A stretch of 50,403 bases of DNA from Alphaproteobacteria bacterium (GTDB lineage: Bacteria > Pseudomonadota > Alphaproteobacteria > Thalassobaculales > Thalassobaculaceae), in NCBI GenBank assembly GCA_024742605.1, contig JANSYC010000026.1, positions 1 through 50,403 on the forward strand, read 5' to 3'. The number at the start of each line of letters is the position of its first letter. Positions within the stretch are counted from its first letter, which is position 1. A program made the translations under genes and the position numbers. Below the pieces are notes generated by a model that saw only the letters and a program-made list of their open reading frames with translations, had not been told where the DNA came from and ran no database searches. Below are positions 38,385 to 50,403 of the stretch, piece after piece.

Positions 38385-38523
38385 CCAGCTCTCTCCCAAC
38401 GGTCGGCTCGACCGGTTTGTCCCAACCCTGGATCAACTCTCGCACCGCAAGCTTAACAATTTGCGACGCGTCTCCTGCGGCAAAGACGCTACGCAAGATT
38501 GGGGCCAGTGCCCGAGGATTCAA
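38377..38523 (-). CDS. Probable micro-gene between motA and motB (48 aa)
   Basis: A 48-residue frame filling the gap between the motA stop (38541) and motB. Read from TTG at 38523 it has GGAGG six bases upstream; an ATG six bases earlier touches that GGAGG directly. The peptide starts NPRALAPILRSVFAAGD and continues ASQIVKLAVRELIQGWDKP, an amphipathic helix-like pattern with sensible composition, unlike shadow frames. Its TAA overlaps the motB GTG region, so motB could be translationally coupled to it. No family is recognised. Function is unknown; a stator-related role is only inferred from place. Confidence 0.5.
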   Translation of the reverse strand: MNPRALAPILRSVFAAGDASQIVKLAVRELIQGWDKPVEPTVGRELGG

Positions 38524-47820: not shown

Positions 47821-47925
47821 CGTTTCGTCTCCCTGGCCCGATGTTCGGGCCGTCTGTCTTTGGTCTCTCCAGGTGCCCATCACGACGACAGGCATCCGCT
47901 GTTCTCGGCCGGAACCGGAGCTCGG

Positions 47926-48690
47926 TCAGGCTCCAATCACATCGATTATGTCTATGTTTCGGTCCCGAAAGGCGCGTATTTGGTACGGGCCCCCAACCTC
48001 TTGCGGAATAATACAGGTCGCGTTCTGCTCCACAATCCCCGGCATCCGACCCGGATGAAAGGCGCGGAATTCAATGGATGTCCGCGGCGTGGTCGGAGCT
48101 TCGAGCTGTTGCGTCCTGTGCAGGGTGAATTGTTCGAAGGAAACCGAGCCGCCCGCGGCCATTTCCAGGTCGACAATCCTAATCGCTCCCAGGTTCGCCC
48201 GAATCTCGTCGTCGGAGAACAGAATGTTTGAATCTCCGGACTCCAACCGTTTCAGCCAATACGCGCGAGGGCCGTCGTCAGTGTCATGGCTATCCAGCCG
48301 GATGAAGGACAGGGCAGGTGCGGTCTTCCCGACATCCTGAAGCGTGACCCAGTTTGTCATGAAGGGCTCGGTGCTCCTGACCAGGTTTGCGTCCATGTGC
48401 CAATCGACGTGGGTGGAGACGTCGTCAACGGGATGGTGCCGGATGGTGCAGAGATTCAGTATAAGTCCGGGCTCAACCCCAAACTGACTTCTAAACGGAT
48501 TGGCAATCTTGCTTTGATAGAAGGTCAGGACGGCGGACCTGATCATGTCCCGGTACTCCGCCCGATCAACCCACTGGGCGAGGGCGGTCTTGGGGGCATT
48601 GGCTGCCTGCAGGAGCCGCTCCGTGACCCACCGCAGCTCGTCAAGCTGAGGCGCGCTCAAGGCCTTCCTCTGGACCGCTATCCTTTGCAC
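47926..48690 (-). CDS. Phytanoyl-CoA dioxygenase-like (PhyH-type) protein
   Basis: A 254-residue soluble protein with features of Fe(II)/2-oxoglutarate oxygenases: HVDWHMDANLV (an HxD pair), the distal histidine in FEQFTLHRTQ, and the arginine in TSIEFRAFHPG that would bind 2-oxoglutarate. The core is therefore likely a jelly-roll oxygenase; the name PhyH-like is by fold only. The apparent start is GTG without a clear ribosome site, so the N-terminus is uncertain. Base composition is visibly lower in GC than both neighbours, suggesting a transferred gene. It lies just downstream of the broken CoA-transferase gene on the same strand. Confidence 0.6.
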   Translation of the reverse strand: MQRIAVQRKALSAPQLDELRWVTERLLQAANAPKTALAQWVDRAEYRDMIRSAVLTFYQSKIANPFRSQFGVEPGLILNLCTIRHHPVDDVSTHVDWHMDANLVRSTEPFMTNWVTLQDVGKTAPALSFIRLDSHDTDDGPRAYWLKRLESGDSNILFSDDEIRANLGAIRIVDLEMAAGGSVSFEQFTLHRTQQLEAPTTPRTSIEFRAFHPGRMPGIVEQNATCIIPQEVGGPYQIRAFRDRNIDIIDVIGA

Positions 48691-48715
48691 TGTCCGGCCG
48701 CCCTCGCCTGATCCC

Positions 48716-49885
48716 TCAGCGCTTGAGGGATTTCAGGATCTCGTCCCGTGTCTCGTCGAGATTCGGCGCCGGCCTGCGGGTCGTCGGATCCGCGTAGCCC
48801 GAGACCTTGATCGGGTTGCCGACCACCTTCATGGGGCCGGTCACCGGATCGTCGACGGTCACCACCATATTGCGGGCGGCGGTCTGGGGATACTCGATCG
48901 CCTGGCCGATATCGTTGATCGGGCCGGCCGGAATGCCGGCGGTGTCCATCACGCCCATCCAGTAATCGGTCGTGGCGGTGTGCAGGATCGCCTCCAGCTC
49001 CGATTTCAGCAGATCGACATGCTGGGCACGGAGGTCGTTGGTCAGGAAACGCGGATCGGTCTTCCAGTCAGGCTTGCCGACCCCGTCGGCCAGCTTCTTG
49101 AACAGGCTGTCGTTTCCGGCCGCGATGATGATGTAGCCGTCCTGGGTTTCGAAGGCCTCGAACGGGGTGATGATCGGGTGCCGCGCGCCCAATGGGCCGG
49201 GCGCCTAGCCGGGCCAGCTAAATCGCATGGACGCGTTCTCAAGCAGCGCCAGCTGGCAGTCGAACATGCCGATATCGACCTTGCGGGCCTCGCCGGTGAT
49301 GGCCCGGTCGTACAGGGCAGAGATCAGGCCGATGGCGGCGTAGAGCCCGGAGCCGATATCGCCGATCGACATGCCGATCCGGGTCGGCGGGCTGTCGGGA
49401 TGTCCGGTCACGCTCATGATGCCGCCCATGCCCTGGACCACCATGTCATAGGCCGGGCGCTTCATGTCCGGTCCGGAATGGCCGAATCCGGAGGCCGAGG
49501 TGTAGATCAGCTTGGGGTATTTGGCGTGCAGGTCCTCCCAGCCGTAGCCGAGCTTCTCCATGGTGCCGGGGCGGAAGTTCTCGACCACCGCGTCGGCGGT
49601 CTCCAGCAGCTGCTCGAAGATCGCCCGGTCGGCCTCCTGCTTCAGGTTGAGCGCGATGCTCTCCTTGCCCCGGTTGACCGACTGGAAATAGGCCGACTTG
49701 CCGTTGACGAACGGGCCGTAGTGGCGGGCGTCGTCGCCGGTCTCCGGCGCCTCCACCTTGATCACCCGGGCGCCCAGCTCCGCCATCATCAGGGTGGCAT
49801 AGGGACCCGCGAGAATGCGGCTCACATCGACGACGGTGATTCCGGACAGCGGACCGGTACGTACAGCCGAACCATCGGCGACCAT
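48716..49885 (-). pseudogene. CaiB/BaiF family CoA-transferase with in-frame TAG
   Basis: A family III CoA-transferase of about 389 codons, interrupted by a TAG at 49205-49207. Before it the N-terminal part (226 residues) has LSGITVVDVSRILAGPYATL, the GADR-like VENFRPGTMEKLGYGWE and the catalytic-Asp region VDIGMFDCQLALLENA. After it the same frame continues with APGPLGARHPIITPFEAFET to a normal C-terminus ending EILKSLKR. There is no frameshift. Homologues have a Glu or similar residue at this place (GEVPG-type loop), so a GAG or CAG to TAG change explains it. It may be a recent pseudogene, a sequencing error, or a suppressed stop. Start: ATG with GGGAGAA upstream. Confidence 0.9.
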
Positions 49886-49994
49886 GGCAATTCTCCCTGT
49901 GAGACGAGACATTCGGACGGTCCCGCATGCGAGGGTTTTAGACCAGCGGCGCGAGCGGGAGCAAGAGAGCGGGTGGGACCGGGCGCAGCCGGGC

Positions 49995-50403
49995 TCAGAA
50001 CTCGATTCCGGCCTGGGCCTTGAAGCCGCTGCGGAACGGATGCTTGATCTGGGTCATCTCAGTCACCAGATCCGCCGCCTCGATCAGCTCGTCCTTGGCG
50101 TTGCGGCCGGTGACGATGATGTGCAGATCGGGGCGTTTGGCCTTCAGCACCTCGACCACCTCGGCGATCGGCAGGTAGTCGTAGCGCAGCACGATGTTCA
50201 GCTCGTCCATCAGGATCATCTTGATCTCCGGATCGGCCATCAGCTCCTGCGCCATGTTCCAGGCGTTGCGGGCGGCGGCGATGTCCCGGTTCAGATCCTG
50301 GGTGTCCCAGGTGAAGCCTTCGCCCATGGTGTTGATCACCACCTGATCCGGGAACGCCTCCAGCACCTTGCGCTCGCCGGTCTCCCACTTGCCCTTCACG
50401 AAC
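49995..50403 (-). CDS. cobO: Cob(I)yrinic acid a,c-diamide adenosyltransferase, C-terminal part
   Basis: The last ~135 codons of a BtuR/CobO-type adenosyltransferase, which attaches the adenosyl group to the corrinoid cobalt in B12 synthesis. The frame is open to the right edge, so the P-loop part lies outside. FVKGKWETGE, then NTMGEGFTWDTQD, the ILMDELNIVLRYDYLP Walker-B-like strand, HIIVTGRNAKDELIEAADLVTEM and the terminal KHPFRSGFKAQAGIEF are all CobO signatures. It reads leftwards toward the CoA-transferase gene and ends 109 bp before that gene's start. Confidence 0.95.
   Translation of the reverse strand, partial: FVKGKWETGERKVLEAFPDQVVINTMGEGFTWDTQDLNRDIAAARNAWNMAQELMADPEIKMILMDELNIVLRYDYLPIAEVVEVLKAKRPDLHIIVTGRNAKDELIEAADLVTEMTQIKHPFRSGFKAQAGIEF

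Follow-up and report, generated by a model that had tools for sequence, protein, structure and literature searches.

The interrupted gene

We analyzed a stretch of 50,403 nt (hereafter, the window) on contig JANSYC010000026.1 of an Alphaproteobacteria bacterium, whose genome assembly comprises 187 contigs and 4.47 Mb with a completeness of 100. Near one end of the window, a gene of the CaiB/BaiF family (CoA-transferase family III) occupies positions 48716..49912 of the minus strand, with 398 codons followed by TGA, and is interrupted at codon 236 by an in-frame TAG (49205..49207, minus strand; CTA at 49205-49207 on the plus strand). When this TAG was read as X, 48716-49912 gave a single 398-residue frame whose sole stop is codon 236, in agreement with the original prediction of an in-frame TAG inside a CoA-transferase gene. 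The frame listing divides the gene into an open 5' part of 235 residues (49205..49912, minus strand) and an open 3' part (48716..49192, minus strand), the first listed start of which is a TTG at codon 241.

The translation with TAG as X matched PF02515 in one stretch (residues 22-387, 416.5 bits, profile positions 1-364 of 366). All seven NCBIfam matches fell below their cut-offs, the best being NF008511 (CoA:oxalate CoA-transferase; 413.9 versus 522 bits), too low to settle the substrate. We found 18 PF02515 matches in this genome, a single open frame on contig C23 accounting for two. The copy in the window is the only one with a stop inside its frame, and the other 17 of the 18 matches are stop-free. 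The double frame on C23 (G000:C23:59363-60451) is 494 residues long and carries its two PF02515 matches in reversed order, so that it is perhaps a permuted member of the family.

A patch of substitutions adjoining the stop codon

The comparison within the genus was made with one congener (of two genomes of the genus that were searched, both match, that of the window included). The congener's copy is L010; the same contig also appears as L057, labelled as an uncultured Rhodospirillaceae metagenome-assembled genome. Its ortholog has an intact, uninterrupted frame of 398 codons, shares 93% DNA identity with the gene in the window, and carries AAG at codon 236. The two genes differ at 81 bases, 67 of which are third positions, and the differences outside the region described below are mostly synonymous.

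The TAG is not a lone change. It belongs to a scrambled patch of 26 bases (49207..49232, minus strand) in which 11 positions differ from the congener, every one by a transversion, and which contains no indel. Five of six consecutive codons are altered, and the residues ahead of the stop read RFSWPG* in the window versus RYFVTGK in the congener. The original prediction had explained the stop by one base change from GAG or CAG. Given that the congener has AAG and that ten further differences accompany the TAG within the 26 bases, this single-base explanation is incomplete.

We used 16 outgroup loci, two pairs of which look like one genome fetched twice (identical alignment rows), to assign the differences to one lineage or the other. 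By outgroup majority, the window carries the derived state at 10 of the 11 differing positions of the patch, and the congener at one (49208, silent, codon 235); all six differences that alter the meaning of a codon in the cluster arose on the window's side. Only 11 of the 398 codons differ in meaning from the congener, and six of these lie within codons 228-236. When 11 changes were placed uniformly at random, five meaning-changing codons in six arose in 5 of 200,000 placements. The ratio of transitions to transversions is 0/11 in the patch versus 37/33 in the rest of the gene (Fisher p = 0.0007). Both statistics were selected once the patch was known.

Outside the cluster, four meaning-changing differences are window-derived and one is congener-derived. 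The corresponding nonsynonymous:synonymous counts are 4:19 versus 1:37 (p = 0.06, with six unclear differences left out and several polarisations taken from one or two loci), which gives a weak hint that selection on the window copy may have been relaxed outside the cluster. In the 3' part, two nonsynonymous and 36 synonymous differing codons were counted in 162.

Wider relatives and a possible split gene

We also aligned the gene with relatives at 108 loci, which represent 93 distinct proteins, contain several genomes twice (from two collections) and include two distant paralogs. At codon 236 the 108 loci encode E, K, T, Q, S, V, A, D or I and in no case a stop; the premature stop is thus absent from the orthologs examined. 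The alignment of L099 does contain a stop, but it lies at query position 11, in a poorly aligned N-terminal stretch. YfdE (entry 4hl6), the best-scoring solved structure, aligns to residues 19-393 of the congener protein and is gapless at codon 236. Neither the W at residue 233 nor the P at 234 occurs in any of the 108 relatives, and the F at 231 and the S at 232 occur in five each. The earlier claim that both sides of the stop match one CaiB/BaiF enzyme therefore holds in so far as the PF02515 match is continuous, but not for the abnormal residues just before the stop. The window copy is a member of the family by this match, and differs from it by the stop and by the abnormal patch ahead of it.

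These data also bear on the possibility that the gene has been split in two, with the 3' part translated anew from the TTG (codon 241) and its product assembling with the 5' chain. Such a start would lie five codons past the stop codon, and the 3' part has been kept conserved. However, 108 of 108 relatives lack a stop at codon 236, and no purine-rich ribosome site was seen by eye before the TTG; we regard a split gene as very unlikely. Codon 241 is CTG in the congener. It is TTG in 2 of the 16 outgroup loci, so that this start need not have arisen together with the break.

Tests of amber suppression

If the TAG were read through or suppressed, as a recoded codon, as pyrrolysine or by a natural suppressor, the full-length enzyme would be made. 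The reading frame continues uninterrupted before and after the stop, and the conservation of the 3' part described above would fit this explanation. Bacterial in-frame stops that retain a ratio of nonsynonymous to synonymous substitution rates (dN/dS) below 1, and that are suspected of readthrough, are reported by Belinky et al. 2021 (PMC7918605). The gene in the window resembles those cases in having its stop within an otherwise conserved-looking frame, and differs from them in that the stop is found in a single genome.

None of the 43 Rfam tRNA matches of the genome, all typed by ARAGORN, has a CUA anticodon, although this search would miss a tRNA that departs too far from the Rfam model. 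Release factor 1 (RF1) is present above the cut-off. No match to PylS was found above the cut-off in the genome (one of 14 control genomes has one), and the single match below the cut-off lies in a threonyl-tRNA-synthetase-like gene, as judged by its domains. A test for RNA structure near the stop gave no signal (z = 0.39).

We also surveyed 450 kb, consisting of the window and 400 kb of other contigs, for the use of TAG. Coding-like frames were defined by codon use and a stop-to-stop length of 100 codons or more; they are not verified genes, and those that leave a surveyed stretch were counted as TAA. TAG is the terminator of 108 of 339 such frames, the broken gene's included. In 35 cases, nothing but an in-frame stop divides two neighbouring coding-like frames. 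Only caiB was judged to be a single gene, whereas the remaining 34 pairs were judged by eye, from their ends, to be separate genes. Pfam searches of 5 of these 34 pairs, all taken from the 12 among them that are divided by TAG, assigned the two members to different families in four cases and matched only the upstream member in the fifth; for one of the pairs, 229 of 285 upstream codons were submitted. Thus, the survey of the 450 kb, which was partly by eye and would miss frameshift breaks or pieces shorter than 100 codons, revealed no further gene that an in-frame stop divides.

Judged by tRNA anticodons, RF1, PylS and TAG usage, amber suppression and pyrrolysine were rejected as the explanation, and a suppressed amber is not supported. 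The absence of a stop from the codon in all 108 relatives, and the abnormality of the adjacent W233 and P234 as well, also speak against readthrough, to which we assign a very small probability. The original prediction had held a mutation or an error to be likelier than a suppressed amber and had proposed searches for a suppressor tRNA or pylT/pylS and for further conserved genes with in-frame TAG, and an alignment of homologues at this codon; its preference agrees with these results and with the stop-free state of the remaining CaiB-family matches. It is also very unlikely that some enzyme is still produced in this lineage by inefficient readthrough or by a restart at codon 241 (TTG), in which case the stop might act as a brake on the expression of a gene that is still of use.

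Neighbouring DNA and the end of the contig

Directly behind the gene, between caiB and an aldehyde dehydrogenase gene, a stretch of 881 bases (47835..48715, minus strand) has no alignment to the congener, which has approximately 100 bases in its place. This stretch contains a PhyH-like open reading frame (ORF) at 47926-48690, with a G+C content of 0.59 versus 0.65 for the window. An aldehyde dehydrogenase lies near caiB in 19 of 80 named loci, the congener among them, and none of these 19 showed a match to the PhyH-like ORF between the two genes. L063 has a 29% match to this ORF on the other side of caiB. A defence or phage origin of the ORF was also considered, and no PADLOC or PHROGs match was found at E 0.001. 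Given that the extra 881 bases lie directly behind the gene in the window's lineage, the caiB locus has changed recently.

On the other side, only 1.2 kb separates the patch from the end of the contig (C1), which stops within a cobO-like gene (49995-50403). Because the site is near the contig end and no continuation like that of the congener was found in the assembly, the local sequence quality may be poor.

A lesion in the organism or an error in the consensus

Since the gene is otherwise conserved, either the break is very recent or the consensus is in error. We give about an even chance to the former, in which the TAG would be a very recent gene break by a local multi-nucleotide lesion that is present in the organism. 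Approximately ten substitutions within 26 bases would have altered five of six consecutive codons without an indel and created the TAG. Translation would then stop at residue 235 and leave the C-terminal 40% of the enzyme unmade, for which reason the product is presumably inactive; the loss may perhaps be covered by the other CaiB-family genes of the genome. The sequences directly show the stop, the patch, examined relatives that lack the patch and have intact genes, and no CUA tRNA among those found; from these we infer a single event in the organism itself that inactivates the product.

Several observations weigh against such a lesion. No other site in the genome lies within three mismatches of a 21-mer over the patch, and gene conversion from a donor within the genome was rejected on this basis. 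The longest displaced match within the gene is eight bases, a length that 304 of 500 shuffled patches reach, so that template switching from direct or inverted neighbouring sequence was rejected as well. Gene conversion and template switching are therefore not shown, because no donor was found and the matches are at the level of shuffled or background sequence. In the 27 kb of the window that could be aligned to the congener, and to which the cluster comparisons refer, at least five meaning-changing codons in six were also found in 7 of 27 frames, each of which has at most 94.5% amino acid identity to the congener. Similarly, 0.5% of 18-base windows are at least equally dense in differences. 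Seven spots are denser than the patch over 18 bases; judged by coordinates, each is located outside coding-like frames in the gaps between them, where a frame starts, or within a frame of approximately 80% amino acid identity. Finally, the congener's sequence past the contig end has no counterpart in the assembly, save one 44-base match. The patch is striking for so conserved a gene, yet it is not unique in the window.

Other local origins were considered. A small quasi-palindrome is present at the site, but similar ones are found 11 times per kb in the window, and it was rejected as a template. Paired compensating frameshifts were rejected by eye, given that a gapped reading requires almost as many changes as the ungapped one. 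The coding-like frames of the window and the congener differ by 16 frame-breaking indels (two places being listed twice) and two in-frame indels, and the indel nearest to the patch, at 38398, is approximately 10.8 kb away. A diversity-generating retroelement was rejected by eye, without a search, as the changes extend beyond adenines.

An error in the assembly consensus is nearly as probable as the lesion. In this case, the gene would be intact in the organism, and the patch and its TAG would come from poor or misassembled reads near the contig end. The patch consists of substitutions only, all transversions, for which no template was found; the remainder of the gene is conserved; and the contig is cut a short distance away, in the cobO-like gene. 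In addition, the longest run of consecutive transversions in the 27 kb (16 in 113 bases) starts at the patch and extends beyond it. However, that run is not unique, as there are two further runs of 11 where approximately 0.5 runs of at least 11 are expected. The number of contigs and the completeness of the assembly suggest a fair depth, at which stray bad reads should be outvoted, and no further gene split by an in-frame stop was seen in the survey. The long contigs, the absence of other split genes from the survey, the adjoining extra stretch and the weak hint of relaxed selection lead us to slightly favour a real multi-base lesion over a consensus error, and we rate the two as nearly equal.

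Implications

Recent bacterial pseudogenes that arise by nonsense mutation have an in-frame stop, intact relatives and surrounding sequence that is still conserved. The gene in the window resembles them in all three respects, and is unlike them in that its stop is accompanied by approximately nine other window-derived substitutions in 26 bases. What we describe is either a gene break of an ordinary kind or an error in the sequence, in a common metabolic gene family. It calls for caution, as a stop that seems to be a lone point change may sit in a scrambled patch that is visible only against a close relative. Should the patch prove real, it would clearly exemplify a multi-base lesion for which no template is visible.
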